Virus record (IMG/VR): IMGVR_UViG_3300029448_000380
Location: 1 to 25,780 of that record
Source of the DNA: a virus
DNA length: 25,780 nucleotides
Reading direction: 5' to 3' (one strand)
The notes under the pieces are model-generated. The model searched no databases. It saw only the letters and a list, made by a program, of their open reading frames with translations, and was not told the origin of the DNA. Numbering within the stretch: position 1 is the first letter of the stretch; each line of letters starts with the position of its first letter. This document shows positions 1,886-22,688 of this stretch, piece by piece. The position numbers were made by a program, and so were the translations under genes.

Positions 1886-2495
1886 AGTAATCCTTACAGA
1901 CGTTGATGGCGTACTGTTAGAGTGGGAACACCATTTCACAAAATGGATGTTACAAAGAACACTGTTTGACCAAAGAGGTGCTAGGTACCACCCTTACAGA
2001 TTGTTACCCAATAAACAAAATACATACGAGATGGCAGACCGTTTTGGGTTGACCAAAGATGAAATACGTAAAGAGATCAGGGAGTTCAACAGGAGTGCAT
2101 GGATGGGAACACAAAGACCCATGCTTGAGTCACAAACTTGGGTGAAACTTATGGCCGCAGAAGGTTGGACATTTATTCCTATCACATCGCAGACGTCAGA
2201 CATACCTGCACAGCATTTACGTAAGAAAAGATTAGGAGAATTATTTGGAGATCATGTTTTTACCAATTACCATATTTTAGGCACAGGAGCCGACAAAGAT
2301 TCGGCATTAGCAGAGTTTCACAACACCGGACTATATTGGGTCGAGGACAAGCCAAAGAACGCTGTAGCCGGGCTCAAATACGGTTTAAAGCCTATATTAA
2401 TCGACCATGAATACAATCGAGACTTTGATCATCCTGAGATTATACGTGTAAGTAATTGGAAAGAAATACACCAAATTACGTCGGGAAGAAAATGA
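1869..2495 (+). CDS. HAD-superfamily hydrolase (probable nucleotide or sugar phosphatase)
   Basis: A 208-aa protein with the four HAD signatures: motif I DVDGV (11-15, nucleophile D11 and acid/base D13), motif II ITSQ (106-109), a possible motif III lysine in ADKDS (141-145), and motif IV WVEDKPKNA (157-165) with acidic E159/D160 for Mg2+. HAD enzymes of this size usually remove phosphate from nucleotides, sugars or DNA ends. The substrate cannot be read here. Related proteins occur in marine T4-like phages as unassigned hydrolases. It overlaps the uvsY-like gene by 17 nt and the next glycosyltransferase start by 4 nt (ATGA), so it may serve DNA-end or nucleotide metabolism, or supply a dephosphorylated sugar to the adjacent glycosyltransferase. 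Confidence 0.8.
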   Translation: MPTSNRVILTDVDGVLLEWEHHFTKWMLQRTLFDQRGARYHPYRLLPNKQNTYEMADRFGLTKDEIRKEIREFNRSAWMGTQRPMLESQTWVKLMAAEGWTFIPITSQTSDIPAQHLRKKRLGELFGDHVFTNYHILGTGADKDSALAEFHNTGLYWVEDKPKNAVAGLKYGLKPILIDHEYNRDFDHPEIIRVSNWKEIHQITSGRK

Positions 2496-3166
2496 AAATA
2501 TATGTAGGACACGACAGTAGAGAAGACATAGCATATCAAGTTTGTGAACACAGTATAAAAAGAAGAGATCCTTCTGCTGAAGTAATACCACTGAAACAGA
2601 AACAAATGAGGGATCAAGGATTGTACACCAGACCAGTGGACAAACTAGCCTCCACAGAATTTACTTTCACTAGATTCTTTGTACCATATATCAATGACTT
2701 CAAAGGTTGGGCAGTTTTTTGTGACTGTGACTTCCTTTGGAAAATACCATCGCACGAACTTATAAAACACTGTGACAACTCGAAAGCAGTGGTTGTTGTG
2801 CAACATGATTACACACCAAAAGAAACTACAAAAATGGACGGGCAGGTGCAGACAGTGTACCCAAGGAAAAATTGGTCTAGCATGGTGCTTTGGAATTGTG
2901 AACACCCAAAGAACAAAATACTTACTCCAGAATTGCTCAACGAAGAATCGCCAAAATTCTTGCACAGGTTTGGTTGGTTGGATGAGAACGAGATAGGATC
3001 TCTGCCTCTAGAATACAACTGGTTAGTTGGTTGGTATAAGGAACCAAACGACGGACATCCAAAGATCCTACACTACACTGAAGGTGGTCCATGGTTTGAT
3101 GGTTATCGTGATTGCGAGTACGCGGACGATTGGAAGAAAGAACTTATAAATTTATTCAGTGCGTGA
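2492..3166 (+). CDS. GT-A fold glycosyltransferase with DxD motif
   Basis: A 224-aa protein with an N-terminal MKIYVGHDSRE strand and nucleotide-binding region, STEFTFTRFFVP (about 55-66), and the metal-binding motif FCDCDFLW with DCD at 78-80, as in GT8-like and related retaining glycosyltransferases. Near the C-terminus HYTEGGPWF resembles the substrate-binding end of this group. It would transfer a sugar from a nucleotide-sugar donor. I choose ATG 2492, which overlaps the upstream TGA (ATGA) and follows GGGAAGAA, over an upstream in-frame ATG at 2456 lying inside the HAD gene. Acceptor unknown: protein, surface polysaccharide or modified DNA base. It is the first of several glycosyltransferases in the region but belongs to the rightward uvsX transcription unit. 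Confidence 0.85.
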   Translation: MKIYVGHDSREDIAYQVCEHSIKRRDPSAEVIPLKQKQMRDQGLYTRPVDKLASTEFTFTRFFVPYINDFKGWAVFCDCDFLWKIPSHELIKHCDNSKAVVVVQHDYTPKETTKMDGQVQTVYPRKNWSSMVLWNCEHPKNKILTPELLNEESPKFLHRFGWLDENEIGSLPLEYNWLVGWYKEPNDGHPKILHYTEGGPWFDGYRDCEYADDWKKELINLFSA

Positions 3167-3603
3167 TGGACTGGACAAAATTAAAACTAGATCACTATCA
3201 CGACCAACCTGTAGAGCACATCTGCATCACCAGTATGATCGACACAAATACCTACGATAGGTTATACGAAAATCAAAAAGATTTGAATCACCAAAGTTGG
3301 CAAGAATTCAAAAAAAAGCACAATACTAATTGTTCTTTGCGAGAAAATATATCAGACATCGATTTAAGCAATGACGTTATTTGGCTTTGGTTCTTCAAAG
3401 AAAGAAGTGATCAGACTGCATCTTACGTTCATATAAAAGGCAAACAAATAAGGTACAGGCCGAACGTTTTCTTAATATCTAAATGCAAAAATTTTAAGTT
3501 TGTGCATGCCTCGAGGAAATATATTAGAAGTCCGTTTGTTCAATTGGACATGAATGTAGATGACTATAATAAAATACTAAAAAGATTTAATAAAACTACG
3601 TAA
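3166..3603 (+). CDS. Hypothetical basic protein
   Basis: I do not recognise this 145-aa protein. It starts with ATG overlapping the upstream TGA (TGATG at 3164-3168); a frame opening at 3112 would add 18 residues from inside the glycosyltransferase gene and is less likely. It is rich in Lys, Asn, Tyr and His, has no signal peptide or membrane segment, and carries a WLWFFKERS aromatic stretch near residue 75. Its DNA is more AT-rich than uvsX. It ends tail to tail with the leftward glycosyltransferase gene, overlapping its 3' end by 27 nt, and no convincing terminator is visible there. Cotranscription with the DxD glycosyltransferase is the only hint of role. Confidence 0.7.
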   Translation: MDWTKLKLDHYHDQPVEHICITSMIDTNTYDRLYENQKDLNHQSWQEFKKKHNTNCSLRENISDIDLSNDVIWLWFFKERSDQTASYVHIKGKQIRYRPNVFLISKCKNFKFVHASRKYIRSPFVQLDMNVDDYNKILKRFNKTT

Positions 3604-4287
3604 CGCATCTACATCAGATTTTAAATGCCTGTCTCTGACTTTAGTCCATACGAAGTTATCTCTTTCTCGAATGTTTAAATTTTCCCGTATTTGTTTTCCT
3701 GCATTGTCATCTAGTATCTTTTTTGCTTTGAATTCAACGTCAGGAAGATAAAGACATCTGTTAAGTTTACGTGCAACTTTTTGTGTGTATGAATCAACAT
3801 GCCAATGCCAAAAAAATGCAGGAGCCAAATATCCTAAAGTATTTGTCCAATTTTTATGAACTGCAAAGTGGGCCGCTGGTAAAGGTTCGTCAGGCCATAG
3901 CGTTGCTTTACTACCAAAGTCCTTGTTGCCTTTCGTACGCCCATCGCTTGGCACTACCATCAGGATCTTGTCTTTAAACTTGTTAATCTCGTCAGTTATA
4001 ATTTTGTCCCAGTGTTTGGTTTTAATTTGCACGTCATCACCCATTAACATTACAACATCATTAGTTGCCTTGTCGCACATCAGATTCCAACTATAACAAG
4101 TTGACTGATTGCGTCCTACCACGTAGTGTTTTTGGTCTAATAGGTCTTTGTACTGTGCTAAAGTTTTGTCATCGTAATTAAGATAAAAAAGAAACTCTGT
4201 GTTACCTTTTTGTGTCTTTAAGGCAGTGTCTATTAATCTTTTTGCTAGTTCAGGTCTACCCCTTGATGGACAGCACAAGGAAATCAT
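3577..4287 (-). CDS. GT2-like glycosyltransferase
   Basis: A 236-aa protein beginning MISLCCPSRGRPE, the typical first strand and loop of family-2-like GT-A enzymes. It continues with a YLNYDD segment (35-40) and MLMGDDVQI (80-88), whose GDD acts as the DxD-type metal/nucleotide motif. A WHWHVDSY segment in the second half could form the acceptor side. It probably adds one sugar to the glycan made by this cluster. It is the last gene of the leftward arm; its ATG overlaps the end of the epimerase gene by 4 nt, so translation is likely coupled. The gene is on the short side for GT2 enzymes but appears intact. Confidence 0.8.
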   Translation of the reverse strand: MISLCCPSRGRPELAKRLIDTALKTQKGNTEFLFYLNYDDKTLAQYKDLLDQKHYVVGRNQSTCYSWNLMCDKATNDVVMLMGDDVQIKTKHWDKIITDEINKFKDKILMVVPSDGRTKGNKDFGSKATLWPDEPLPAAHFAVHKNWTNTLGYLAPAFFWHWHVDSYTQKVARKLNRCLYLPDVEFKAKKILDDNAGKQIRENLNIRERDNFVWTKVRDRHLKSDVDALRSFIKSF

Positions 4288-5288
4288 ATCAATTTATTTT
4301 TCCAAGTTTCCGGAGTGATATCATTAACAATTTCTAAAGGCAAGTGATACTGGAATTTTTTAGTTCCCCTTGTCCTTATATATTCCGCAGTCTTACTCAC
4401 AGACTGTCGCATATTTGTTGATGTTTTGTAGTCCAATAATTCTCGTGCTTTGTCTGACGAACAGGTTGCAAGTTTAACTTCTTTGGGCCTATCTTTGTGA
4501 TGTATTGGATCGAGATTAATTCCTGTTTCATTTGCACAGGCTTCTGCTAATTCGTTTATCGTTACAGGCTCTTCGTCTGGGCCTATGTTTATTACTTCAC
4601 CAACAACGTTGTCATGAAATGCAAGTGCGTTCAAACAATATAGACAATCGTCTATGTAACTGAAACATCTTTTTTGTTCACCGTCTCCGTATATGATAGG
4701 TTGTTTACCTTGCAACATCCTGTTCAACATAATAGACATTACGTTCCTAAAAGGATCGTCATACTTCTGCCTCGGGCCTACAATGTTGTGAGGAACAGCA
4801 ATCACATACTCAACTCCGTGTGTTTCACACAAGTTTCTCAATACGTCTTCTCCGGCCTTCTTTGCAATACCGTATGGATCCTGCGGTCGACATTCGTAAT
4901 CTTCTTTGTAAGGCAACTTGTCATGCTGACCATACCTGGCCATGCTTGAACAGTACACGATACGTTTGACCTTGTTTCTTATTGCGGCAGTAATGGTTGT
5001 GACAGATGCTTCAAAAATATTTCTAGTAACTAACACAGGAGAAAATACAGACAGTCCTTCATAGGCAGTGGCGGCAGTGTGGTACACTATGTCACAACCC
5101 ACCATTGCCTTGGTCATGTTCTCCAAATCGCAACAGTCTACTTGGTGAAACTCAACATCCTGTGGTACATTATCTGTGTAACCACCAATCATGTTATCAT
5201 TACCAGCAACGGTATGACCTTGCGATATCATTAAGTCTGCTAGATGTGATCCTAAAAAACCTGCTACACCTGTGATAAAAATTTTCAT
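4284..5288 (-). CDS. NAD(P)-dependent sugar epimerase/dehydratase (extended SDR)
   Basis: A 334-aa protein of the extended short-chain dehydrogenase family that acts on nucleotide sugars. It has the Rossmann motif TGVAGFLG (6-13), YHTAA (69-73), the catalytic CSS (113-115) and YGIAK (Y139, K143), and a C-terminal substrate domain. The closest known types are UDP-glucose/UDP-N-acetylglucosamine 4-epimerases and related dehydratases; exact specificity cannot be told by eye. It would prepare an activated sugar for the glycosyltransferases around it. A 19-bp gap (5289-5307) separates it from the FkbM methyltransferase upstream, and no strong Shine-Dalgarno sequence is visible. Confidence 0.9.
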   Translation of the reverse strand: MKIFITGVAGFLGSHLADLMISQGHTVAGNDNMIGGYTDNVPQDVEFHQVDCCDLENMTKAMVGCDIVYHTAATAYEGLSVFSPVLVTRNIFEASVTTITAAIRNKVKRIVYCSSMARYGQHDKLPYKEDYECRPQDPYGIAKKAGEDVLRNLCETHGVEYVIAVPHNIVGPRQKYDDPFRNVMSIMLNRMLQGKQPIIYGDGEQKRCFSYIDDCLYCLNALAFHDNVVGEVINIGPDEEPVTINELAEACANETGINLDPIHHKDRPKEVKLATCSSDKARELLDYKTSTNMRQSVSKTAEYIRTRGTKKFQYHLPLEIVNDITPETWKNKLI

Positions 5289-5307
5289 TTTGAGTATTTA
5301 ATTTAAG

Positions 5308-5934
5308 TTATGGACGGTAGAAAACTTTGTCTGGCCAGTGGTCCATCAGTACCTTGTATCCTAAAGTTTTTATATGTGTTTCGATTTCAATATTACTACT
5401 ACCATATTTTCTAGTGTTGTTGTTCAACTCTATCATTATGTACTGCACATTTTCCAACGTGTTCTTTGCACCTTTTAACACTTCCATTTCATAACCTTCT
5501 ACGTCTATTTTAATTAAATCTACGTCAGGAAGTTGTAGACTATCTATTGTGGTCATGGTAATGGAACCCTCACCAATTACTCTTTTACTCTGTGTAAAAT
5601 TATCTTCTGACAAAGATATCTTTGTTTGTTCGGCACCTATGGCAAGTTCATGTGTATCTATATTACCATCAACATTTTTTGCAAGACACGAATAATGAAG
5701 TTTTTCTGGCTCAAACGCAACCACATGATCGCAGTACTGCTTCATTGCCATACTCCATGTGCCCACCCATGCACCTATATCTAAAGCACATTTGAATTTC
5801 TTATTATCTTTACTACAATAATCTTGGAATTTTAAAAGACATTTGTTCTGAGTGAATGGTTTTCCTGCTCTCCAATCTTCTATGTGGACATCATTGCTAG
5901 GCACCCAAAACCCATTAATTTTTTCTATGTTCAT
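5308..5934 (-). CDS. FkbM-family SAM-dependent methyltransferase
   Basis: A 208-aa class I methyltransferase. The SAM-binding motif I is LDIGAWVGTWS (51-61), the ribose-binding acidic loop is AFEPE (73-77), and the FkbM hallmark KIDVEGYEMEVLKGA (142-156) is complete. FkbM enzymes O-methylate sugars and other small molecules and are common in polysaccharide and LPS clusters, including those carried by marine phages. Here it most likely caps or modifies a glycan residue. Its start overlaps the end of the upstream SGNH-like gene by 4 nt, so both are likely on one leftward mRNA. No truncation is seen. Confidence 0.9.
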   Translation of the reverse strand: MNIEKINGFWVPSNDVHIEDWRAGKPFTQNKCLLKFQDYCSKDNKKFKCALDIGAWVGTWSMAMKQYCDHVVAFEPEKLHYSCLAKNVDGNIDTHELAIGAEQTKISLSEDNFTQSKRVIGEGSITMTTIDSLQLPDVDLIKIDVEGYEMEVLKGAKNTLENVQYIMIELNNNTRKYGSSNIEIETHIKTLGYKVLMDHWPDKVFYRP

Positions 5935-6710
5935 AGTATTTCTTCAACTAGCGGCATCAATTGTTCCGCCCATGCTGTCTGGCCTTCCACGTTTGGATGT
6001 TCGTCTAACTCCGATACAACCATTTTATGTTTTAGGCACCAACCATGTTGCGTTTCATTGAAACTGCCTTGCAATCTATAATAATTTTTTTGATCAACCA
6101 TACCTAATAATTTTTTACACTCATCAGTTAACGGGTCATCGAATCCATTGTAAAGGGCATTGTACATTAAGTAAGGTACACGATTTGCATTACAAAAATT
6201 TTGCATATAGAGTATCTGCATCGCTGTCCTTATCTGCCCTTCTTCTTCTATGGCAGGGTAGTATTCTCTAACACCTTTGTTTATCCATGGATCGAATTTT
6301 ACATCCTTGTAGTTGACCTGTTCATCTATGCCTACCATCTTCCAGGTGTGCCAGTGGCTAGGATTACTGTGATACTTTTCTCTTACTCTAGTAAGTCCTT
6401 CTCTTCTGTTGTGACTGGTGATACCGATCAACACAAACGTTTTTCTAAACTGTATATGTAACAATCTTCGCAATATCATCTCGTTGCTGGCACCGTTTTG
6501 TGAAATAGGATTGTACTTCCGATCTAGTTTATCCGCTAATATCTTGCCAACGTTGGTGGGCTCGTTAGGAATTATCAATCCGTGTTTTTTCTCAAACTGT
6601 TTCTTACGATTTTTAAAATGTAGGTTGGCTCCCCTCTCCAGTCCGGGTATAAATGTTGGTACTGCGTTGCCAACAGCCATGGAACATCCTAAATGTATCA
6701 ATCTTTTCAC
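5931..6710 (-). CDS. SGNH/GDSL-hydrolase-like protein (putative glycan esterase or acyltransferase)
   Basis: A 259-aa protein with a degenerate SGNH layout: HLGCSM (S10 as candidate nucleophile), NGASN (72-76, the Gly/Asn oxyanion block), and DEHPNVEG near the C-terminus (D236, H238) as the Asp-His end of the triad. The usual DxxH is here DxH, as in some remote members of the fold. It shares the GCS start and the HP-x3-G-x3-WA-x-QL ending with the other SGNH-like protein at 7494-8183, so the two are probably distant paralogs. Expected role: adding or removing acetyl or other acyl groups on the glycan. No signal peptide is seen, which favours a cytoplasmic role. Function is inferred from motifs only. 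Confidence 0.65.
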   Translation of the reverse strand: MKRLIHLGCSMAVGNAVPTFIPGLERGANLHFKNRKKQFEKKHGLIIPNEPTNVGKILADKLDRKYNPISQNGASNEMILRRLLHIQFRKTFVLIGITSHNRREGLTRVREKYHSNPSHWHTWKMVGIDEQVNYKDVKFDPWINKGVREYYPAIEEEGQIRTAMQILYMQNFCNANRVPYLMYNALYNGFDDPLTDECKKLLGMVDQKNYYRLQGSFNETQHGWCLKHKMVVSELDEHPNVEGQTAWAEQLMPLVEEIL

Positions 6711-7519
6711 AGCAATCCCTTGTCCATCAATATTTCTATTGCACGCCCATTTGCTAACTCCTCAGGGGTAAACTGTTGGTATGCAAGACTGTACAACCAC
6801 TCTTCGGGACCTCCGTAGTAAGGATTTTCTATGTCGGCCAATTCGGTTCCTGCTACGTCAGTGGCAAAGCTCTTCTCATGACAGAACACCGGGACACCTT
6901 CACACATGGCCTCCACCGCGGAGATAGAACAACTGGTCACAACACACCACGCCTCTTTAAGATCCTCAGATAGGGGTATCTTGGCTTCACTCGGTCCTGA
7001 TGTACCCCTGCCCCTAGGCTTGAGTCGAAGTCGTATAGGTCTGTCTGTGTATCTCTTTATTTTTTCTATAGTACGATTTGTCCAATCAGGCTCATCTATA
7101 TAAGTGTTAATGCTGTCCGAACTAGGACAAACCAATACGTACTTGCCAGCGAACGCAGGCGCCTTTAACTTCATGCCAAACTTCTCGAATCTGTCTGGCT
7201 TACAGTCTTTAATGTAAGGTACGTGTATGTTGTTCTTGCAAATACGCCAGTAATGATTGTCTGCTTTGAGATTGCTGTTGTCAAATCTTCCAAAGTATGG
7301 AGTATCCGCAAACCAATAATTATGATTACGTGCCTCCAACTGCTGTATCATTCCCATGTTGTTGTTAACAAATCCCCAAAACATGCTGTTGCTGGCAGGG
7401 TCTGTCTCAACTGCATTGTCTAGTTTTGTTATCTGCTCAGGCCAAGATTTTGCTACACCGTTGAAAACTTCCCACGCCTTGCTTTTTGGATTATTAAATG
7501 GTGCGTAAATTGTTAGCAT
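6707..7519 (-). CDS. KpsS-like GT-B glycosyltransferase, paralog 1 of 4
   Basis: A 270-aa protein of a family that recurs four times here. The C-terminal half carries the family signature: a basic LRLKPRG loop (164-170), VVTSCSISAVEAMCEGVPVFC (193-213, the usual sugar-phosphate-binding Ser/Thr loop followed by G-x-P), ADIENP (228-233), and a closing W-x3-L-Y-x3-F-x2-E-E-x-A-N-G block. This resembles the capsule polysaccharide KpsS/KpsC-type GT-B domain. The N-terminal half shares a YWFADTPYF (68-76) and HYWRICKN (89-96) pattern with paralog 2. It probably transfers a sugar to a growing surface glycan. It overlaps its neighbours by 4 nt (downstream) and 26 nt (upstream). Confidence 0.65.
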   Translation of the reverse strand: MLTIYAPFNNPKSKAWEVFNGVAKSWPEQITKLDNAVETDPASNSMFWGFVNNNMGMIQQLEARNHNYWFADTPYFGRFDNSNLKADNHYWRICKNNIHVPYIKDCKPDRFEKFGMKLKAPAFAGKYVLVCPSSDSINTYIDEPDWTNRTIEKIKRYTDRPIRLRLKPRGRGTSGPSEAKIPLSEDLKEAWCVVTSCSISAVEAMCEGVPVFCHEKSFATDVAGTELADIENPYYGGPEEWLYSLAYQQFTPEELANGRAIEILMDKGLL

Positions 7520-8183
7520 CTATAAATTTCTTCAATTGAGTTGCCCAGTCTTTGTGTCCTGCTGTTGACGGATGTGGATCGTCAGGTGCACAGTGTTGAT
7601 TATTTTGCACCGTGTAGTCTAAATGGCTGGTGTCTGGTTTGAAGAATCTTTTTGTATCTATCTTGTCAAACATTAACTTTATATCAGGATTTTTTATGTC
7701 TGCGTCTGATAGTGTGTTGTACATGACATATGGATACTTCCTTAATTTGAAGAAATCCTGTAGATCGTGTATAGCAAGAAGAGATTCAATTTGAGTCGCC
7801 TGCTCTATGTCTAAACCTTTTGCAAAAAGATATTTGAAAAAAGATTCTGTGTTGCTGTCACGGTTTGGATCCCATGTCTTCCAGGTGGTCTCCATTGAGG
7901 GAAACTTACGTTTCTTAAAACCATCACCCGTGGGAAAGTCAAACCTATCACCACCACTGGATCCTATGACAAAAAAACATTCACTTGCCAGATCTGGAAA
8001 CTTTTCACACCAAACCCTAGTCGTCCACATTAGGCGTTTGTTGCCACGTCCGCCGCCTGCCAGGTTCTCAGCAATTGGAAGATCCAACATGCTTGACAAT
8101 TCCTTTCCACAGTGCGTGAGGACTCCACACTTGGGTCTGGTCGTCAAGAAAGAACAACCATTTATGAACATTTTTGTTGGCAT
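7494..8183 (-). CDS. SGNH/GDSL-hydrolase-like protein, first gene of the leftward arm
   Basis: A 229-aa protein with the SGNH pattern: FINGCSF (S11 candidate nucleophile), LAGGGRGNKR (41-50, Gly/Asn blocks), FVIGSSGGDR (71-80), and PDDPHPSTAGHKDWA (200-214) giving a DxxH/DxH triad end at D201 or D202 and H204. It is a probable esterase or acyltransferase acting on a sugar, a relative of the protein at 5931-6710. The first codon, ATG 8181-8183, lies only a few bases from the predicted leftward transcription start, so the mRNA may be nearly leaderless; an in-frame Met at residue 5 is an alternative start. No membrane segment or signal peptide. Confidence 0.65.
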   Translation of the reverse strand: MPTKMFINGCSFLTTRPKCGVLTHCGKELSSMLDLPIAENLAGGGRGNKRLMWTTRVWCEKFPDLASECFFVIGSSGGDRFDFPTGDGFKKRKFPSMETTWKTWDPNRDSNTESFFKYLFAKGLDIEQATQIESLLAIHDLQDFFKLRKYPYVMYNTLSDADIKNPDIKLMFDKIDTKRFFKPDTSHLDYTVQNNQHCAPDDPHPSTAGHKDWATQLKKFIDANNLRTI

Positions 8184-8188
8184 GTGAC

Positions 8189-8198
8189 TATAATTATA
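8189..8198. promoter_or_regulatory. Palindromic divergent -10 element (bidirectional promoter of the glycan cluster)
   Basis: The 32-bp gap between the leftward gene (ATG ending at 8183) and the rightward GT61 gene (ATG at 8216) is AT-rich and contains TATAATTATA, a perfect palindrome. It reads as TATAAT on + (8189-8194) and again as TATAAT on - (complement of 8193-8198). Possible -35 boxes are weak: TGAACA at 8165-8170 for + and TTGCAT (complement of 8216-8221) for -. The two transcripts would start about 15 bp apart and could not initiate simultaneously. Confidence 0.55.
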
Positions 8199-8215
8199 TA
8201 CTACTTATTCATGGT

Positions 8216-9307
8216 ATGCAAACGGTAAAAAACATAAGTTCTTTGAAGTATTTCTTGGATCGTTGGGAGACGGTGGATCCAGAATACAATTACACTGTTC
8301 CCTATCATGATTCGATTGATCCAAAATTCTCAAGTTTACCAACCTTTGTAGCGGAGTTCCATAATTGCAAAGTGCATACTTGTCCTTTGTTGCTAACAAG
8401 AGAAAATAAATTAATCACAAACCATGTTTGGACACTCACACACAAGAGCAGACACAAGCCACACAAGAGTCACAACCTCTGGTCCGAATGGGACGACACA
8501 GTAGATTTACAAATACCACCGGTAACAGAATTTTTCCATGAGAAAGACACATACGTGTGGTTACCTGTAGATGAAGAGAGCAAAGGCAACCCATGGCACA
8601 TCTGGATAGATGTAATATCTAAATTTAGACTGCTTGAAAAAAGATGGTCTACCAACTTCGCTAGGTATTGCTTTGTGTTGGCGAATCATAGTCCTTACTT
8701 TGAAAAAGTTTGCAAGGAACTTTTTCCTGATGTAAAGATAGTTGTTATGCCAAAAGGCGACACATGGCATTTCAAACATCTCATCGTGCCAAGCATGAGT
8801 AACGTAAGGGATGGGGTAATCGTGCCACCACTGGCACCTTGGCTGAGACATTTCAAAGGGGCAAATAACCTTAAAGGGATAAAACCTCACAGAAAAATAG
8901 TTGTTTTACGACCTGGAGCGAAAACTAGAAGAATGTTGAATTCAGATGAATTGTTGCTGAAACTTAAAGGATGGGACACAGTCACTCTTGAAAATTTAAG
9001 CATTAAAGATCAAATGAAAACATTTGCAGAGGCATCTCACGTGCTGGCGGCCCACGGCGCAGGTATGGTTAATTTGTTATGGTGCCAACCTGGAACAAAG
9101 GTCATAGAGATCCAAGACAGGAACATGATACACAAAAAAGTATATCCATTGCTGTCGCACAACCTTAACCTAGAGCATAAGTTATATCTAGCAGATGTGG
9201 TTCCTATACCGAGGGAGAATAATTCAAAACCAACAGGAGTGAAAAGGTTCAGCGATATGATAAACTTTAAAATTAATATTCCTGAAATTATGGAGCACTT
9301 AGAATAA
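8216..9307 (+). CDS. Family GT61 (DUF563) glycosyltransferase
   Basis: A 363-aa protein with the GT61 pattern: NPWHIWIDV (125-133) in the N-terminal half, then a conserved VVLRPGAKTRRMLN segment (229-242), a K-x-W-D-T-V strand, and the hallmark LAAHGAGMVNLLWCQPGT (278-294). Bacterial and phage GT61 members build capsule or LPS; plant members include xylosyl- and arabinosyltransferases. The frame stays open leftward to a TTG at 8174, but that would overlap the divergent gene and the promoter, so ATG 8216 is preferred. It is the first gene of the rightward arm. Its TAA overlaps the next ATG (TAATG at 9305-9309). Confidence 0.85.
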   Translation: MQTVKNISSLKYFLDRWETVDPEYNYTVPYHDSIDPKFSSLPTFVAEFHNCKVHTCPLLLTRENKLITNHVWTLTHKSRHKPHKSHNLWSEWDDTVDLQIPPVTEFFHEKDTYVWLPVDEESKGNPWHIWIDVISKFRLLEKRWSTNFARYCFVLANHSPYFEKVCKELFPDVKIVVMPKGDTWHFKHLIVPSMSNVRDGVIVPPLAPWLRHFKGANNLKGIKPHRKIVVLRPGAKTRRMLNSDELLLKLKGWDTVTLENLSIKDQMKTFAEASHVLAAHGAGMVNLLWCQPGTKVIEIQDRNMIHKKVYPLLSHNLNLEHKLYLADVVPIPRENNSKPTGVKRFSDMINFKINIPEIMEHLE

Positions 9308-10059
9308 TGTTGTCAGTCTTACGAAAGATACCTATACTAATAAAAGAACCTTATCCTCATTTTATCATAGAGGATTGCTTACCAGATGACATGTATGATC
9401 AACTGGAAAAAGAATGGCCAACTGAACAACTACTTGCAACCGAACCATTCGACGACGGTATATGTTACAGGCTGAAGTCTGATGAAATGTTAAAGCAGGG
9501 GGTTGTAACTGATCTCTGGAAAGAGTTTGCAGAGTACCACACTTCCCCGGCATTTTACAAAGAAGTAAAAAATATTTTTGGCGATCTAATGCCTACTGTC
9601 AAGGACATAGAGCATACATTAAGTCCACGTGGTTGGGATAAGGGTGGAGACCACATAGGATCAGACTGTCAGACAGTGATGCACAAACCTGTAGATTTCA
9701 GTTCGAGGACACCACACATAGATAACCCTAGAGAAATCTACGCCGGATTACTTTACATGCCATACGCAAATGATAAAAGTTCTGGAGGAGAATTCCAGAT
9801 ACACAAGGCAACTTCTGATATTACCGAGGTAAACAAAAACGGAGGCAGAGCCGTAGGGGACAAAGCAGGAGACGTTCTGAAATCCGTGCCCTACAAACGC
9901 AATACATTTGTTATGTTTTGCAACAATTCAACAAGCACTGTGCATAGTGTTTCTGCTAGGAAAGATGCAAAATTACATAGGAGAAGTGTCAACATTATTG
10001 CAGAATACAATAGAGCGTCTAGACGTTCGATGTTTCACGTGAAAGAACTTAGGAAATGA
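9307..10059 (+). CDS. 2-oxoglutarate/Fe(II)-dependent oxygenase
   Basis: A 250-aa double-stranded beta-helix oxygenase. The iron-binding facial triad is HID (H137, D139) and VHSVSA (H213), and RRSVNI (225-230) supplies the Arg that holds 2-oxoglutarate. The N-terminal HFIIEDCLPDDMYDQLEKEWP matches the start of many phage and bacterial prolyl-hydroxylase-like oxygenases. Such enzymes hydroxylate sugars, lipids, nucleobases or protein side chains. Placement between two glycosyltransferase genes suggests a glycan or lipid-linked substrate, but marine phages carry many 2OG oxygenases of unknown target. Start overlaps the GT61 stop; stop overlaps the next start (ATGA). Confidence 0.85.
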   Translation: MLSVLRKIPILIKEPYPHFIIEDCLPDDMYDQLEKEWPTEQLLATEPFDDGICYRLKSDEMLKQGVVTDLWKEFAEYHTSPAFYKEVKNIFGDLMPTVKDIEHTLSPRGWDKGGDHIGSDCQTVMHKPVDFSSRTPHIDNPREIYAGLLYMPYANDKSSGGEFQIHKATSDITEVNKNGGRAVGDKAGDVLKSVPYKRNTFVMFCNNSTSTVHSVSARKDAKLHRRSVNIIAEYNRASRRSMFHVKELRK

Positions 10060-10874
10060 ACATAGCAGGAATACACACAACCAAGCCACGTACACAACGT
10101 TACGTTGACGCTTTTGTAAAGGGCAGTCCCGGTTCTACAAAAAAAATATACCAATTCAGAGAACTTAAAAATTTACCAGAAGAAACTCTTACAATGTATG
10201 GAATACTCGCTGGGTCTGGTGAAGTGTACAAATGGTGTGAGAAGGAAAACAAAGATTTCTATTTTATGGATCATGGTTACTTCACTAATGCACATGACAG
10301 TCCTCACTGGTTGCGAATAACAAAAAACAAACACTGTCAAAACATCATGCAGGACAGGCCACATGATAGATATGAAAAATATTTCAAACAAGGAGTTGAC
10401 CCATGGAACAAAAAAGGAAGCAAGGTACTCGTGCTTCCGCCTACAAATGCTATTGCTAATTTTTTCAATGCCGAAGACTGGTTGGCAAAAACACTAGCAA
10501 CATTAAGACAAAACACAGACAGGCAAATAGAAGTAAGAGAAAAACCTTACAATCCAACTGTTATATTAGATCATGTTGGCGCCACAGTCAAAATAGACAA
10601 GCCGACAGTCCACAAGGGCAATATAGATTGGAAAGATTATCATGCAATAGTAACATATAATTCTAACACGTTAGTTGCAAGCCTTGAAAATGGTGTACCT
10701 GTTTTCTGTGAACCCTCTTGTGCCGCGGCACCCATATCCGAGACAGATTACAGCAAAATAGAAACACCTAAATACGGAGACAGGATTGCATTGTTCTCAA
10801 GTTTAGCGTATAATAATTGGACTATGAAAGAAATGGCCAATGGTACAGCCTGGAGAATGTTGAATGAAAGTTGA
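10056..10874 (+). CDS. KpsS-like GT-B glycosyltransferase, paralog 2 of 4
   Basis: A 272-aa protein most like paralog 1 on the opposite arm. In the N-terminal half FYFMDHGYF (68-76) and HWLRITKNKH (84-93) line up with equivalent segments there. The C-terminal signature is VREKPYN (160-166), IVTYNSNTLVASLENGVPVFC (198-218), SKIETPKYGDR (233-243), and LAYNNWTMKEMANG (250-263). The HP of the usual R-x-H-P loop is replaced (EKPYNP), so catalytic use of that loop may differ. It probably adds a sugar to the cluster's glycan. Its start overlaps the oxygenase stop by 4 nt and its end overlaps the next gene by 11 nt. Confidence 0.65.
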   Translation: MNIAGIHTTKPRTQRYVDAFVKGSPGSTKKIYQFRELKNLPEETLTMYGILAGSGEVYKWCEKENKDFYFMDHGYFTNAHDSPHWLRITKNKHCQNIMQDRPHDRYEKYFKQGVDPWNKKGSKVLVLPPTNAIANFFNAEDWLAKTLATLRQNTDRQIEVREKPYNPTVILDHVGATVKIDKPTVHKGNIDWKDYHAIVTYNSNTLVASLENGVPVFCEPSCAAAPISETDYSKIETPKYGDRIALFSSLAYNNWTMKEMANGTAWRMLNES

Positions 10875-11847
10875 AATATTTAGAAGGACAGTAAAAGATC
10901 GTAAGCGTGGTAACAGTTATGAATTACTTTACCATCTTAAAAAGGGTATCGAAGCCGCAGGAGACCAACCTATTATAGTTAACGAGGACAGATCTGGCCC
11001 AACTGTGGAAGGTGAAATGATGCCTACTGCACCCATGGCGGCCATGTTTGGCTACGGTGGCGACAAGCAGATGCACCACACCAAGGGCAGACGGAGAGAA
11101 CTGGCCGATAACTGCCGAGAGAAAAAAATTCCCTTGATCACATTCGACGGTGGACTGTTGTCTAGTTTTGGCAATGTGTCGACCTCGTCAGAACATCACT
11201 TTCGGGTCTCACTCTACACGCCAATGAACGACGGTGACTTCCTGTCCGACAACAGTCCTAGTGATCGTTGGGACATGTTGGTCAAGAAGTTTAATGTTAA
11301 GTATGAACCATGGCGTAAATCTAATAAAGAGGATCCAATAATATTTGTGCTACAACCCAAGGACAACTGGAGCATGAATGAACTAGATCCCATAGATTGG
11401 TTCAACAGTGTGTATAACAAACTGAGACCAATGACTAATCGAAAGTTCATAGCACGTCCTCATCCAAACAATGTGTCTAACATATTAGAACGTAAAAATG
11501 AACTGCCCGACGACGTTGAAATTCAGTATACACAAAAACATTTTGTAGGAGACGAAAAAAAATTCTATAGATTTCATTTCCAAGAAGCGATAGCGAAGGC
11601 ACACGCTGTGGTGACACACAACTCAACGGCCAGTGTGGACAGTTGTATACGCGGCATTCCTACTTTCTGTACGTCAGACTTAGCATTGTGCTGGGACGTG
11701 TGTAACAAGGATCTTGCAGACATAGAGACTCCCAAAACTACAGACAGGACGCAATGGGTAAACGATCTTGGCTACAAACTATGGAGCATCGATGAAATCA
11801 AAAACGGCACCGTCTACAAAAGATTCAAATCGAAATTAGGTCTGTAA
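10864..11847 (+). CDS. KpsS-like GT-B glycosyltransferase, paralog 3 of 4
   Basis: A 327-aa protein, the longest of the four. It has an N-terminal domain with FGYGGDKQMHHTKG, then a FVLQPKDNWS strand, the complete R-x-H-P loop (ARPHPNN), VVTHNSTASVDSC followed by GIPTFC, LADIETPKTTDRTQWVNDLGY, and a closing W-S-x-D-E-I-x-N-G block. RPHP plus the H-N-S loop matches the KpsS/KpsC-type capsule transferases most clearly. It is closest to paralog 4: both have D/E-R-W followed by a KFN-V/I segment before the GT-B second domain. GGAG lies a suitable distance before ATG 10864. The TAA overlaps the next ATG (TAATG). Confidence 0.7.
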   Translation: MKVEIFRRTVKDRKRGNSYELLYHLKKGIEAAGDQPIIVNEDRSGPTVEGEMMPTAPMAAMFGYGGDKQMHHTKGRRRELADNCREKKIPLITFDGGLLSSFGNVSTSSEHHFRVSLYTPMNDGDFLSDNSPSDRWDMLVKKFNVKYEPWRKSNKEDPIIFVLQPKDNWSMNELDPIDWFNSVYNKLRPMTNRKFIARPHPNNVSNILERKNELPDDVEIQYTQKHFVGDEKKFYRFHFQEAIAKAHAVVTHNSTASVDSCIRGIPTFCTSDLALCWDVCNKDLADIETPKTTDRTQWVNDLGYKLWSIDEIKNGTVYKRFKSKLGL

Positions 11848-12767
11848 TGAGTAGTCTAGCAGTAATAACAACGTTCCCACCAAACAGGTGGACCACATAC
11901 GCAAAAAGGATGATCGAGAGCCATGTTAAATTTTGGCCAGACGACGTAGTGCTTTATGCATACCATGAAGGTGACAGACCAAATTTTGATCATGCCAAAG
12001 TAAAATTTATCAACATTGAAGAAGTTAATCCAGAACTTGTCAGATTCAAACATAGGCACAAGCACGATCCCGTTGCCAATGGCGAAATAAACGAAATACC
12101 TGGCGGCGTGAGGAGAGATCCGACCGCGGGAAAAAACGATAAAGGCAAGGGTTCTTACCTGTGGGACGCAGTAAGATTTTCTCACAAAACATTCGCTGTT
12201 GATCATGCAATTAAAACAATTGATGCTGACTACATATTATGGTTAGACGCAGACACTTACACGTTCAGGAGCATCACGACAGACTTCGTCACTGGCCTAC
12301 TACCAAGTGATAAACTTGTGAACTTCTTAGGTAGGGGAGAAAAGTATCCCGAATGCGGTTGGGTGTGTTATAACAAGAAGCACCCTAAGATCACACAGTT
12401 CATGAAGTACTGGACTGATCTGTACATAAAAGATACCATATTTAAAGAACTAGAATGGCACGATAGTTACGTGTTTTGGCAATGTGTCAAGAGGATAGCA
12501 CCCAACGATGGTGTTGACATAGGCAAGGGAGCAGGTGCCAAAGGACATCATGTGTTCATTAACAGTGTCCTTGGTGGTTACGTGGATCACATGAAAGGCA
12601 AAAGAAAAGTTTTAGGAAAAAGCAGTAAGAGTGATCTGCGTGGTGATCGCACAGAAGATTACTGGAAGAACGTGGAGAACTATGATCCTTTTGGTGGCGT
12701 CAAGTTCGATGCCAAACAAGCAGAGGACATAGTAAGCAAAGTTGCAAAGGGAAAGCAAGGCAACTAA
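11847..12767 (+). CDS. GT-A glycosyltransferase with DxD motif
   Basis: A 306-aa protein starting SSLAVITTFPPNRW, with a GT-A nucleotide-sugar domain and the metal motif ILWLDADTYTF (130-140; DAD at 134-136). SYLWDAVRFSHK (103-114) precedes it, matching the donor-binding region of this group, and WHDSYVFW lies in the acceptor half. It is GT8-like in outline and distinct from the DxD enzyme at 2492-3166. It is likely to add one residue to the glycan. It lies between KpsS-like paralogs 3 and 4 and shares TAATG overlaps with both, suggesting coupled translation of the whole arm. Confidence 0.8.
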   Translation: MSSLAVITTFPPNRWTTYAKRMIESHVKFWPDDVVLYAYHEGDRPNFDHAKVKFINIEEVNPELVRFKHRHKHDPVANGEINEIPGGVRRDPTAGKNDKGKGSYLWDAVRFSHKTFAVDHAIKTIDADYILWLDADTYTFRSITTDFVTGLLPSDKLVNFLGRGEKYPECGWVCYNKKHPKITQFMKYWTDLYIKDTIFKELEWHDSYVFWQCVKRIAPNDGVDIGKGAGAKGHHVFINSVLGGYVDHMKGKRKVLGKSSKSDLRGDRTEDYWKNVENYDPFGGVKFDAKQAEDIVSKVAKGKQGN

Positions 12768-13642
12768 TGAAGATAGAAATTTGGCCAGACCATGGTCCAT
12801 TAAATTCCAAAGACATATTCTCAAAGTTTATTCATTCTTTACGGCAGTCAGGGGAACAGGTGTGGGAGAACAAGCAGGCACCTGATGCCGACGTGGCGGT
12901 TATATGGAGTGTGTTGTGGCAAGGTCGCATGCGGCATAACAAAAATGTATGGGACAGATATAGGAATGCCAACAAGCCAGTGATTGTTTTAGAAGTGGGT
13001 GGTATCAAAAGAAACGAAACATGGAAGATAGGAATCAACGGTGTCAATAGAGAAGCAGACTTTCACAACGAAGCCGTTGGCGGAGAACGCTGGAACAAAT
13101 TCAACATTGAACTTAAGCCATGGATGCAGACAGGAGACGACATAATAGTATGCGGACAGCACACTAATAGCCATCAATGGAGAAACAATCCTCCCATGTC
13201 AAAATGGTTTGAAAATCAAATTACTGAGATCAGGAAGCACACAGACAAACCTATAGTGATCAGGCCGCACCCGAGGAATCATGTTGCAATAGACACGAGA
13301 AAATATAAGAACGTTAGAATAGTAGGACCCAAAAGAGACACCAACACCTATGACGACACAGACCTGGCAGACAGATTACAATCAGCATGGGCGGTAGTAA
13401 GTCACTCAAGTAATCCTGCCATGACAGCAGTGTTCTCAGGAATACCTGTGTATGTATCTGAAACAAGTTTGAGTCACGATGTTGGTAATAAAACTTTTGA
13501 AAACATCAACAATCCTTCAATGCCCGATAGACAACAATGGGCAAACCGTTTATCATACACAGAATGGTGGCCTGAAGAGATAGAGCAAGGACTACCATGG
13601 AAACGAATTAAAAAGCGACTTGAGGAGAAATATCTTAAATGA
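12767..13642 (+). CDS. KpsS-like GT-B glycosyltransferase, paralog 4 of 4
   Basis: A 291-aa protein with VIWSVLWQGRM near residue 50, GGERWNKFNIELKPW in the linker, and the C-terminal signature VIRPHPRN, VVSHSSNPAMTAVFSGIPVYV, FENINNPSMPDRQQWANRLSY and WWPEEIEQG. These align block for block with paralogs 1-3, and the R-x-H-P and S-H-S-S loops are intact. It is expected to be a cytoplasmic glycosyltransferase of capsule type. It follows the DxD glycosyltransferase with a TAATG overlap and overlaps the next ATG by 4 nt. Confidence 0.7.
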   Translation: MKIEIWPDHGPLNSKDIFSKFIHSLRQSGEQVWENKQAPDADVAVIWSVLWQGRMRHNKNVWDRYRNANKPVIVLEVGGIKRNETWKIGINGVNREADFHNEAVGGERWNKFNIELKPWMQTGDDIIVCGQHTNSHQWRNNPPMSKWFENQITEIRKHTDKPIVIRPHPRNHVAIDTRKYKNVRIVGPKRDTNTYDDTDLADRLQSAWAVVSHSSNPAMTAVFSGIPVYVSETSLSHDVGNKTFENINNPSMPDRQQWANRLSYTEWWPEEIEQGLPWKRIKKRLEEKYLK

Positions 13643-14352
13643 TCACACCAATTAATTGGAGCACGTATACGGGCGAAAAGGTTTGTGTTAAGACAACTAT
13701 ACGTGGAGGTAAAAAAATACAAGAATGGAAGTTCTATGAAGACAAAGTAAAAGCGTTGCCACGGGGCAATGGCTACATCATAGGAAACGGACCGTCTCGT
13801 AAAGACTTTGATCTCAACAGACTTAAACCATCAGGACAGACTTATGGTTGTAATGCTTTGTACAGAGATTTCATGCCGGACTTCATATTCTCTGTCGATA
13901 GTAAAATGACCAAGCGAATGATAGAAGACGAAGTCGGACTAAAGACTTTCCACTACGCACCAGCGTTAGAAGTAAACAGAGATGAAAAACAAATGTTACA
14001 TTTGATCCCACATAATCCGCACTGGATATCAGGTAACGTGGCTTTCTGGACTGCAGGAGTTCATGGACACAAAAACATCTATCTAATAGGATTTGATTTT
14101 AGAGAATACGGAGCAGGACAAATAAACAACATCTACCAAGACACTGAATGCTATGGTGAACGTAATGCAGACACCGTATTTGATGGATGGTTGAAGCAAT
14201 TCAGAGATATGATAAAAATGAGACCAGAAGTCCAGTTCACCGTGGTGCACGATAACCCACCCGAGTACCTACAAAATTTGCAGACAGGCACGGACCTAGG
14301 CAATAGTAAAGTTATATCTTACGCTGAGTTTGAAAAAGTTTTAACACCTTGA
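13639..14352 (+). CDS. GT42/DUF115 (MptE-like) fold protein, possible sialyltransferase-like enzyme
   Basis: A 237-aa protein with YIIGNGPSRKDFDLNRL (46-62), TYGCNALYRDFMPDF (68-82), SVDSKM, an ISGNVAFWTAG segment and NIYLIGFDF. This order matches bacterial GT42 sialyltransferases, where the known Campylobacter enzyme has AGNGPSLKEID, RCNQFY, ITSG and KEIYLSGIDF. The same core appears in DUF115/MptE proteins and flagellin glycosylation accessory factors. It could transfer a CMP-linked sugar to the end of the glycan. Sialic-acid synthesis genes are not seen nearby, so the donor is unknown. It is the last gene of the rightward arm; GAGGAG precedes the start, and its stop overlaps the SprT-like gene's 3' end. 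Confidence 0.6.
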   Translation: MITPINWSTYTGEKVCVKTTIRGGKKIQEWKFYEDKVKALPRGNGYIIGNGPSRKDFDLNRLKPSGQTYGCNALYRDFMPDFIFSVDSKMTKRMIEDEVGLKTFHYAPALEVNRDEKQMLHLIPHNPHWISGNVAFWTAGVHGHKNIYLIGFDFREYGAGQINNIYQDTECYGERNADTVFDGWLKQFRDMIKMRPEVQFTVVHDNPPEYLQNLQTGTDLGNSKVISYAEFEKVLTP

Positions 14353-20839: not shown

Positions 20840-21661
20840 ATGCAAACAGTTCAAAGGTATTTACTATCGCAGTCGGTAATTGTTTACCAAAGCGGTTATC
20901 ACGGGAGGAACTCAAAAGTGTACGATAGACGGTTAACGGTATACAGAGGAGTGAGCAACCCGCTGACCTTCACGTTCAAAAATGAAGATCAGAAGTCCCA
21001 GGATGTATCTGCTAAGTCTGTGTCAAGCGGAAACTATTACCAATTAGAGGTGATAGACTCTGAATCACAGCAATCTGTTATTACAAAAACATTGAAAATC
21101 ATAGATGACGGCAGTACCATAGCAACAAAAGGGCAAGCCAGTTGTGAGATATCCGAGGGGGATCTACTGAGTCTAGATGCTAAATTTTACACATATGCAA
21201 TCAAAGAAATCAAATCGGATGGAAGCACTTTAGTGACTTATGCAGATACCAGTTATGTGGCTGGCGGGACCATTGAGGTCTTGGATGGTGCCTATGCACA
21301 ATTCTTACCAAGTACCAGTATCTCAACATTCACAGCAAGTGGTGGACCATTGGAATACACAACATCAAAAATAAATGCCAAGCCAGGCATAAACAACAAC
21401 AAGGCTTTACACACCATTGCAGTGTACACTAAAAATTTCACAGGAGCATTAAGGGTTCAAGGCACGATGAGTACCTCCCCTAGTGAAACTGATTACTTCG
21501 ATATCACAATGGAAGATGCAGGATCAACTGCAAACTCTTTCACAAGTTCTACCACAGTTACGAATTTCAACTTCACAGGTGTTTACCAGAATGTGAGATT
21601 CAGTTGGGGCAACAGCACTGGTAACACAGGTGTGATTGACAAAATCCTATATAGACAGTAA
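20840..21661 (+). CDS. Virion structural protein with BppU-like N-terminal domain
   Basis: A 273-aa protein. The first ~120 residues (RLTVYRGVSNPLTFTFKNED near 30-49, YQLEVIDSES, KTLKIIDDG, EGDLLSLDAKFYTYAI) have the beta-sandwich pattern of phage baseplate upper protein BppU N-termini. The central GGTIEVLDGAYAQF links to a second beta-rich domain from about 165 (NAKPGINNNKALHTIAVYTKNF) that ends GNTGVIDKILYRQ. I recall similar proteins, also ending in a V/ILYR motif, among structural proteins of marine T4-like phages. Likely a baseplate, tail-fibre or head-decoration component. It is the only structural gene in the window and is driven by its own late promoter. No signal peptide or enzyme motif. 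Confidence 0.7.
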   Translation: MQTVQRYLLSQSVIVYQSGYHGRNSKVYDRRLTVYRGVSNPLTFTFKNEDQKSQDVSAKSVSSGNYYQLEVIDSESQQSVITKTLKIIDDGSTIATKGQASCEISEGDLLSLDAKFYTYAIKEIKSDGSTLVTYADTSYVAGGTIEVLDGAYAQFLPSTSISTFTASGGPLEYTTSKINAKPGINNNKALHTIAVYTKNFTGALRVQGTMSTSPSETDYFDITMEDAGSTANSFTSSTTVTNFNFTGVYQNVRFSWGNSTGNTGVIDKILYRQ

Positions 21662-21674
21662 AATAGTACTGATT

Positions 21675-22688
21675 ATGAATCTTATACAGAATACAATTCT
21701 GACTAGTCTGCCTGCGAATAGAAAGAAAACGCCAAGCGGTTGGATCAGTTTCAATGCACCGTGTTGTGTATACAACGGTGAGACTGCTGACAAAAAGAAA
21801 CGCGGTGGACTGATGACCAGTGCAGACGGAACTGTGAGTTACCATTGTTTCAACTGTGGATTCAAGGCCAGTTATGTTATAGGACGTAAACTGACCTACA
21901 AGATGAGACAGTTCATGAGTTACATAGGCATACCTGAGGACACCATACGTAAGTTGGCCATAGAAGCCATGCGTGAAGAGGAGAGTGACATCAAGTATGA
22001 AAAGAAAAAATTTATTACATTCAACAAAAAGAATTTGCCAAACAACACCAGGCCGTTGGACACATGGTTAGAAAAATACACAACAGGAACATTATCAGAC
22101 ACAGAACAGAAAAGTATAGACAACTTGTTGACCTATCTATCTAGTAGAGGCATTGGACCTGATTGGTATGACTTCATGTATTCGTCTAGTAAAGTGTGGG
22201 ACGTATATCAAAGATTATTAATTCCATTCTATTGGCGAGGCGAAGTTGTTGGATTCACGGGAAGGATGTTTGAAGAGTCTAACGGAGTAAAATACTACAC
22301 AGACGTATGGCCAGGATATGTGTTCAACATGGACGCACAGGACTGGACAAGGAAATTTGTTATAGTCACGGAAGGGCCATTTGATGCAATTACCGTTTCT
22401 GGTGTCAGCATACTAGGGTCAGAGATAAATGATACACAAAGAGAGTTGATTGATGGACTGGGCAGGAGAGTTATTGTGGTGCCAGACAGAGATGCTCCTG
22501 GAGAAAAACTGATAGGACAAGCAAAAGAATTTGGATGGAGCGTGGCCTTCCCAGAATGGGGAGATGACGTAAATGATGTCGCCGATGCTGTAGCAAAATA
22601 CGGAAGACTATTTGTCCTACAGTCTATACTGAAGACAGCAGAATCCAATAAACTGAAAATAGATCTCAAAAGAAAAATGTATGGTTAG
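21675..22688 (+). CDS. 61: DnaG-like DNA primase (T4 gp61 type)
   Basis: A 337-aa primase, near T4 gp61's 342 aa, that makes RNA primers for the lagging strand with the gp41 helicase. The N-terminal zinc ribbon has C30, C31 and HCFNCGF (57-63; C58, C61). The TOPRIM catalytic core has VTEGPFDAI (231-239, E233) and VVPDRDAPGEK (268-278, D271 and D273). Between them lies LLIPFYWRGEVVGFTGR (181-197), the usual RNA-polymerase-domain signature. I choose ATG 21675; the frame opens earlier at 21636, but that part overlaps the structural gene. The 3' end overlaps the radical SAM gene by 8 nt. Confidence 0.92.
   Translation: MNLIQNTILTSLPANRKKTPSGWISFNAPCCVYNGETADKKKRGGLMTSADGTVSYHCFNCGFKASYVIGRKLTYKMRQFMSYIGIPEDTIRKLAIEAMREEESDIKYEKKKFITFNKKNLPNNTRPLDTWLEKYTTGTLSDTEQKSIDNLLTYLSSRGIGPDWYDFMYSSSKVWDVYQRLLIPFYWRGEVVGFTGRMFEESNGVKYYTDVWPGYVFNMDAQDWTRKFVIVTEGPFDAITVSGVSILGSEINDTQRELIDGLGRRVIVVPDRDAPGEKLIGQAKEFGWSVAFPEWGDDVNDVADAVAKYGRLFVLQSILKTAESNKLKIDLKRKMYG

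Follow-up and report, generated by a model that had tools for sequence, protein, structure and literature searches.

Four anciently diverged KpsC/KpsS-like paralogues without the canonical nucleophile in a putative glycan-assembly island of T4-like phages

Why would a phage keep four diverged copies of one glycosyltransferase within 7 kb, and what would they make? The question is raised by the IMG/VR virus record IMGVR_UViG_3300029448_000380, analysed here over its whole length of 25,780 bases (the window). The window encodes uvsX, a uvsW-like helicase, a primase and a gp41-like helicase, which mark it as a T4-like phage. The best annotated matches of the window helicase are jumbo Pseudomonas phages (55%), and a megablast comparison of 25 kb of the window with annotated phages gave no match. 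The four copies, of which B and D are adjacent and overlapping, are intact open reading frames at the positions and on the strands given by an earlier reading made from the DNA letters alone (the sequence-only reading):

6707–7519, minus strand: copy A (P0001), 270 amino acids, intact open reading frame; glycosyltransferase with a predicted KpsC fold
10056–10874, plus strand: copy D (P0002), 272 amino acids, intact open reading frame; same family as copy A
10864–11847, plus strand: copy B (P0003), 327 amino acids, intact open reading frame; same family as copy A
12767–13642, plus strand: copy C (P0004), 291 amino acids, intact open reading frame; same family as copy A

A profile search of the whole record returns exactly these four and no fifth copy. 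The answer that we favour, at a probability of roughly 0.55, is that the copies are ancient paralogues of the KpsC/KpsS superfamily, that a T4-like marine phage lineage keeps them as the fixed core of an island for glycan assembly, and that they are active, stepwise glycosyltransferases working without the nucleophile of their relatives.

All six pairs among the copies are homologous, with Smith-Waterman scores of 138–253 against shuffled means of 34–38 and shuffled maxima of 54–77 (500 shuffles per pair; z 18.8–39.6). The closest pairs are 6707/10056 (28.8%) and 10864/12767 (25.2%). The four-way alignment contains 18 invariant columns, mostly in the C-terminal half (among them R..F, V, W, T, R-x-x-P, V..S, G-x-P, I-x-x-P, L-x-Y and E...G), and most of these positions stay invariant or nearly so across 41 diverse family members. 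Both the homology and the shared C-terminal signature proposed by the sequence-only reading are thereby borne out. Its description of the second pair stands in part: an intact RPHP is found only in 10864 and 12767, the counterparts being RLKP in 6707 and REKP in 10056, but the RW...KFN linker is not private to the pair, since it is present in the form [DE]R[WFY]..K[FY] in all four copies.

The annotation libraries used leave these genes unnamed. Scans of the four copies against Pfam, PHROGs and NCBIfam returned no family above cut-off, Capsule_synth (PF05159) matched neither the four copies nor the 41 family members, and a profile search of PDB sequences found nothing related to the family. 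DUF6716 (PF20471) scores 15.5 bits with copy B and 11.6 bits with copy C against a cut-off of 27, with no listed match for A or D. A bacterial family member, L332, bridges the gap: it passes the cut-off of DUF6716 (4.9e-8) and scores 17.8 bits (0.0024) with Capsule_synth, whose cut-off is 20. Comparison of single groups with KpsC and KpsS by hhalign gave mostly low probabilities, the best being 79% for B against KpsS, so the link to KpsC rests on intermediate sequences and on the fold.

Copies C and A were modelled with AlphaFold from 41 sequences of the window and the loci; the mean predicted local distance difference test score is 92.6 for C and 90.7 for A. For both copies, KpsC modules head the Foldseek and VIA lists. 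Specifically, copy C aligns with KpsC 8fuw at a VIA-align Z of 15.0 (237 residues, 3.8 Å) and copy A aligns with KpsC 8fuw at a Z of 12.5 (234 residues, 5.0 Å); WbbB and KrkA come next, and other GT-B enzymes score lower, at 10.6 and 8.5. In these models, copies A and C have a KpsC/KpsS-type GT-B fold, and copies B and D would share it by homology. Because KpsC, WbbB and KrkA, all of them retaining transferases of 3-deoxy-D-manno-oct-2-ulosonic acid (Kdo), lead the lists, the label "KpsS-like", assigned by eye in the sequence-only reading, is right at the level of the fold. The predicted viral structures that were matched include a protein of phage CcrColossus and Tetraselmis virus proteins named capsule biosynthesis proteins.

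Viral contigs, scanned with the four proteins or with an alignment of them, yielded about 190 loci. The family members there sort cleanly into orthologue groups A (containing the 6707 copy), B (10864), C (12767) and D (10056), and in some contigs a group E takes the place of D at the same site. The lowest identity inside the groups is 46–63%, mean identities between the groups of the four copies are 23–30%, and D and E share 41%. The median ratio of nonsynonymous to synonymous substitution rates is 0.027–0.073 by group (pairs at 90–99.5% identity); the four copies are under strong purifying selection.

What chemistry could these proteins perform? In KpsC, WbbB and KrkA, the nucleophile is the Asp of a QXXXD motif, cytidine monophosphate (CMP) is bound by a (K/R)XHP motif, and a Glu serves as the base (PMC10148158, PMC12887879). 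In KpsC, the base is Glu66, substitution D160A is inactive and D160N gives ~3.5% product (PMC10148158). The Asp is described as absolutely conserved in Kdo transferases, its loss abolishing activity (PMC10148158, PMC12887879), and this group is described as the only one among glycosyltransferases so far to use double displacement through a covalent Asp adduct (PMC12887879).

We aligned the family with KpsC and KpsS sequences from bacterial genomes and tabulated the motif positions over 353 orthologues. The QXXXD Asp is not conserved at the aligned position in any of the five groups: the residue is Gly or Ser in A, Asn in B (85/85), Ser in C (77/77), Ala in D (60/62) and Ala or Ser in E, and the Gln is also gone in A, D and E. 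At the position of KpsC Glu66, all 353 proteins have an acidic residue, Glu in C (77/77) and Asp in A, B, D and E (276/276). R-x-H-P is kept in B (85/85) and C (77/77), RxKP is found in A (107/107) and D (62/62), and the HP histidine is gone in A, D and E. In particular, copy A has D72 at the base position, PSSDS in place of the nucleophile motif and R-L-K-P at 165–168; copy D has D72, PPTNA and R-E-K-P at 161–164; copy B has D95, Q164-P-K-D-N168, with Asn at the nucleophile position and Asp one earlier, and an intact R198-P-H-P201; and copy C has E76, Q131-H-T-N-S135, with Ser at the nucleophile position, and an intact R166-P-H-P169. The Asp of PSSDS in P0001 was considered as a nucleophile and rejected, being shared by only 16 of the 107 group A orthologues.

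The alignment is anchored by three members that carry all three KpsC features (E, QxxxDAS and RPHP), namely a fifth paralogue, F, podovirus ct7QV12 (L194) and the bacterial L332, and pairwise alignments of B and C to QXXXD-bearing relatives agree at the Q motif every time. Since the anchors keep QxxxDAS and the aligned position in the groups is not a conserved Asp, the alignment argues that the nucleophile was lost from a canonical, ancestor-like state, not merely missed; the Asp one residue earlier in group B may be a shifted nucleophile. Without the QXXXD nucleophile, the copies are not canonical Kdo transferases, and "KpsS-like" fails if it is taken to mean a working retaining Kdo transferase.

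The genes around the copies follow a strongly conserved order. It runs from uvsX through four small genes, the GT8-like gene at 2489 among them, and a variable stretch to A and an SGNH-like gene, both on the minus strand; then come GT61, in some contigs a 2-oxoglutarate (2OG) oxygenase, D and B, next the 11847 gene (GT-A-like), C and the 13639 gene (GT42-like), and last SprT and uvsW. We counted 62 distinct haplotypes spanning this interval, the sample being defined by the 2489 gene, A and SprT. A seven-gene core (GT8-like, A, D or E, B, the 11847 gene, C and GT42-like) is present in 62/62. In one relative (L087), the orientation of D and B is reversed against that of the remaining island; local rearrangement does occur. 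The neighbours of the copies in the window, with their presence among the 62 haplotypes, are as follows:

2489–3166, plus strand: GT8-like, DxD-type (CDCDFLW); core; by inspection, no Pfam match
3577–4287, minus strand: GT2-like glycosyltransferase; variable (20 of 62); Pfam match just below cut-off
4284–5288, minus strand: nicotinamide adenine dinucleotide-dependent sugar epimerase/dehydratase; variable (23 of 62)
5308–5934, minus strand: FkbM-type O-methyltransferase; 51 of 62
5931–6710, minus strand: SGNH-like esterase (G-C-S, D-x-H-P), DUF6071-like; variable; below cut-off, motif by inspection
7494–8183, minus strand: SGNH-like esterase beside copy A (SGNHb); 58 of 62; motif by inspection; homologue near paralogue F
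8210–9307, plus strand: GT61 glycosyltransferase; 61 of 62
9307–10059, plus strand: 2OG-Fe(II) oxygenase; variable, 44 of 62
11847–12767, plus strand: putative GT-A enzyme (LDADTY); core; by inspection, no Pfam match
13639–14352, plus strand: GT42 sialyltransferase-like (GNGPS); core; PHROG 4603 at E 9.8e-4, CstII at E 0.006

A crude hydropathy scan found no clear membrane segments in the proteins of the island, and no flippase, polymerase, ligase or membrane glycosyltransferase was found there by that scan; the phage genome is incomplete, and host enzymes could serve. Elsewhere in the window, a radical S-adenosylmethionine (SAM) protein with a SPASM domain (22681–23589) lies between the primase and the gp41-like helicase, and a protein at 20840–21661 resembles by eye, and may be, a virion or tail component of T4-like phages.

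Where else does the family occur? Paralogue F is found in two longer relatives (L235:8696-9601 and L236:9335-10237), in a second island past gp41 and an endonuclease III gene, beyond the position of the window's right end. The second island also holds an SGNH-like gene, FkbM genes and several radical-SAM-like genes, homologues of the window's SPASM protein among the recurring ones. Caulobacter phages C1 and CcrColossus have two members each, placed after the tail genes and before the lysis genes and beside GT8-like homologues; in CcrColossus, a gene weakly homologous to the GT42-like gene lies beside the family as well. In pelagiphage Mosig, the two members are accompanied by homologues of the GT8-like, 11847 and FkbM genes and by an annotated sulfotransferase gene; a homologue of the 11847 gene also lies near the family member of podovirus ct7QV12. 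No CMP-sugar synthetase was found in the complete phages Mosig, C1 and CcrColossus or in the fragments of eight relatives, so any CMP-sugar donor would come from the host.

In bacteria the family is rare. A scan of genome contigs with the four-row alignment found two contigs from metagenome-assembled genomes (MAGs). An Omnitrophota MAG (L192, L333) has three members, two of them in tandem, with a GT8-like homologue beside one; its HP motifs read RPKK, RPRK or RPKP, and the locus looks like a polysaccharide locus. In the phylum of this MAG, 1 of 285 genomes carries the family, namely the MAG itself. One of the two contigs, from a Gammaproteobacteria MAG bin (L191, VGUW01000086.1), was rejected as a bacterial homologue: it carries GT61, a D/E-type gene (E) and B in the order of the window and is almost surely a phage fragment. 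In the phylum of that bin, the family occurs in 3 of 397 genomes, excluding G001, whose match is a phage fragment.

How might the island work? Without a nucleophile, the covalent double displacement of KpsC would be impossible, and the nucleophile-less copies probably attach sugars by another route than this two-step chemistry. In the mechanism that we propose, the nucleotide sugar would be held by the R-x-H/K-P loop, and the conserved Asp or Glu would activate an acceptor hydroxyl for direct attack on it, which is inverting chemistry. Each copy would act as a glycosyltransferase that adds one specific residue in sequence, and the copies, together with the GT8-like, GT42-like, GT61 and GT2 enzymes, the methyltransferase, the SGNH proteins and the oxygenase, would build and decorate one oligosaccharide. 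The diverging specificities suggested by the sequence-only reading are plausible on the motifs, each orthologue group having its own near-invariant active-site set. Because the island encodes no flippase, polymerase or other membrane protein, the acceptor is probably cytoplasmic, a location towards which the data lean; a virion (tail) protein and a lipid-linked precursor of the host are the likeliest candidates.

Several points weigh against this reading. Pairwise alignments of A and D to QXXXD-bearing relatives need gaps at the Q motif; the P0001 Asp can be aligned with the nucleophile position, though it is present in only 16/107 orthologues; and the invariant Asp of group B, one residue before that position (85/85), could be a shifted nucleophile. 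The use of a CMP-sugar is deduced from a motif that A and D carry in altered form, and a protein that has lost its nucleophile may also be a pseudoenzyme. It is in the Caulobacter phages, not in the window's lineage, that the genes lie next to tail genes, and the membrane scan was, as said, crude. Finally, the searches used four of the seven core genes as baits, which in part selects for their fixed presence, although a contig retrieved through a single gene could lack the others.

The best-surviving alternative, which we regard as a serious contender though one that we would not bet on, is that the island remodels the host surface, lipopolysaccharide (LPS) or O-antigen, against superinfection. 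This has been proposed for the glycosyltransferase genes of pelagimyophages and cyanophages (PMC7029224, PMC7824862, PMC3037559), and a change of host LPS is one published view of what such genes do (PMC7029224, PMC7824862), virion glycosylation being another (as cited in PMC12619734). The cellular relatives in an apparent polysaccharide locus (L192/L333) fit it, as does the cargo of the variable stretch in other contigs, relatives of 3166–6707, where inspection finds AsnB-, FkbM-, sulfotransferase-, GDP-mannose dehydratase (Gmd)- and DegT-like genes. The missing flippase, polymerase, ligase and membrane glycosyltransferase and the tail-to-lysis position of the Caulobacter homologues speak against it.

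It is unlikely, in our estimate, that some of the copies have no catalytic activity and serve the island's active glycosyltransferases as scaffolding or regulatory subunits. Groups A, D and E lack the Gln, the nucleophile Asp and the HP histidine and yet always co-occur with the RPHP-bearing B and C, as such subunits would. However, what replaced these residues is just as invariant (RxKP, PPTN, CPSS), and an acidic residue stands at the base position in every case, which suggests altered chemistry more than decay. Mosig-type relatives carrying the KP motif, moreover, are found in the absence of any B or C orthologue.

Still harder to sustain is the view that the copies are working retaining Kdo or ulosonic acid transferases with a relocated nucleophile, fed by host CMP-Kdo. 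KpsC is the closest fold, B and C have an unaltered RPHP, an invariant Asp stands at Q+3 in group B, the lack of a CMP-sugar synthetase in the phages Mosig, C1 and CcrColossus fits a supply of CMP-Kdo by the host, and the general base has moved during the evolution of known Kdo transferases (PMC12887879). Against these points stand the loss of the QXXXD Asp from all five groups, together with the Gln in three, and the published strictness of that Asp in active enzymes.

How did four copies come together? We built a 64-row tree with KpsC and KpsS as outgroup, in which the deepest branches carry a long-branch warning. Each orthologue group is recovered at 100%. A is sister to the M1 group of Mosig (100/95*), and D/E groups with Mosig M2 and the bacterial L331 (98/95*). 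The first-pair subgroup of the sequence-only reading, 6707 with 10056, holds up (95/97*), although the Mosig genes and a bacterial gene belong to it too. B and C branch deep, and the pair 10864 and 12767 is neither recovered by the tree nor rejected (approximately unbiased (AU) test, p=0.22). Forcing A–E into one clade costs 75.9 log units and is rejected (AU p=0.0003), as is a clade of A, D and E (AU p=0.007). With A–E rejected as a clade, the duplications would predate the lineage, or the genes were assembled by exchange, and the claim that duplication took place inside the cluster falls, both first-pair copies having their nearest relatives in Mosig. Tandem duplication and inversion inside the phage cluster, suggested by the close spacing of the copies, the overlap of B with D and the inversion in L087, is very improbable given the AU rejections, the Mosig and bacterial affinities, and within-group identities far above those between groups, and a recent tandem event is rejected by the AU test.

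A broader and more tentative possibility is that a KpsC-fold clade, here mostly of phages, gave up covalent double displacement (retaining) for inverting transfer without a nucleophile and expanded to at least four fixed enzymes writing a defined oligosaccharide on a phage component. If such a switch occurred, the nucleophile-bearing basal members F, L194 and L332 would be its living intermediates. A large natural family with the same fold and no Asp, alongside relatives that keep it, makes a change of glycosyltransferase mechanism testable by simple assays. For four genes unnamed in the annotation libraries used, which a widespread marine phage lineage seems never to lose, the analysis provides a predicted fold and a testable active site, and it points to an uncharacterised phage glycan.

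Among known systems, KpsC, the dual retaining β-Kdo transferase of group 2 capsules (GT107), and KpsS offer the closest solved fold for copies A and C; base site, Q-motif strand and R/K-x-H/K-P loop follow one another in the copies as they do in these enzymes, and the GxP segment is shared. Unlike them, the copies lack the QXXXD nucleophile, have KP for HP in two cases and Asp for Glu at the base position in three, and are single-domain proteins of 270–327 residues with no Pfam Capsule_synth match. KrkA (GT140) and the GT99 domain of WbbB belong to the same fold class (Z 8.9–13.3) and set a precedent for Kdo transferases with negligible sequence similarity to KpsC; however, both keep the nucleophile Asp and the HP motif (PMC12887879), whereas the window copies do not have the full set. 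DUF6716, a putative glycosyltransferase family, shows weak C-terminal similarity in 11 of 41 members, with L332 above cut-off, but the four window copies fall below it and only ~50 residues match. The islands of pelagimyophages and large cyanophages are likewise glycosyltransferase-rich, with sugar-modifying cargo, in T4-like marine phages (PMC7029224, PMC3037559); they are described as variable host-recognition or LPS genes, whereas the lineage of the window has a fixed seven-gene core between uvsX and uvsW.

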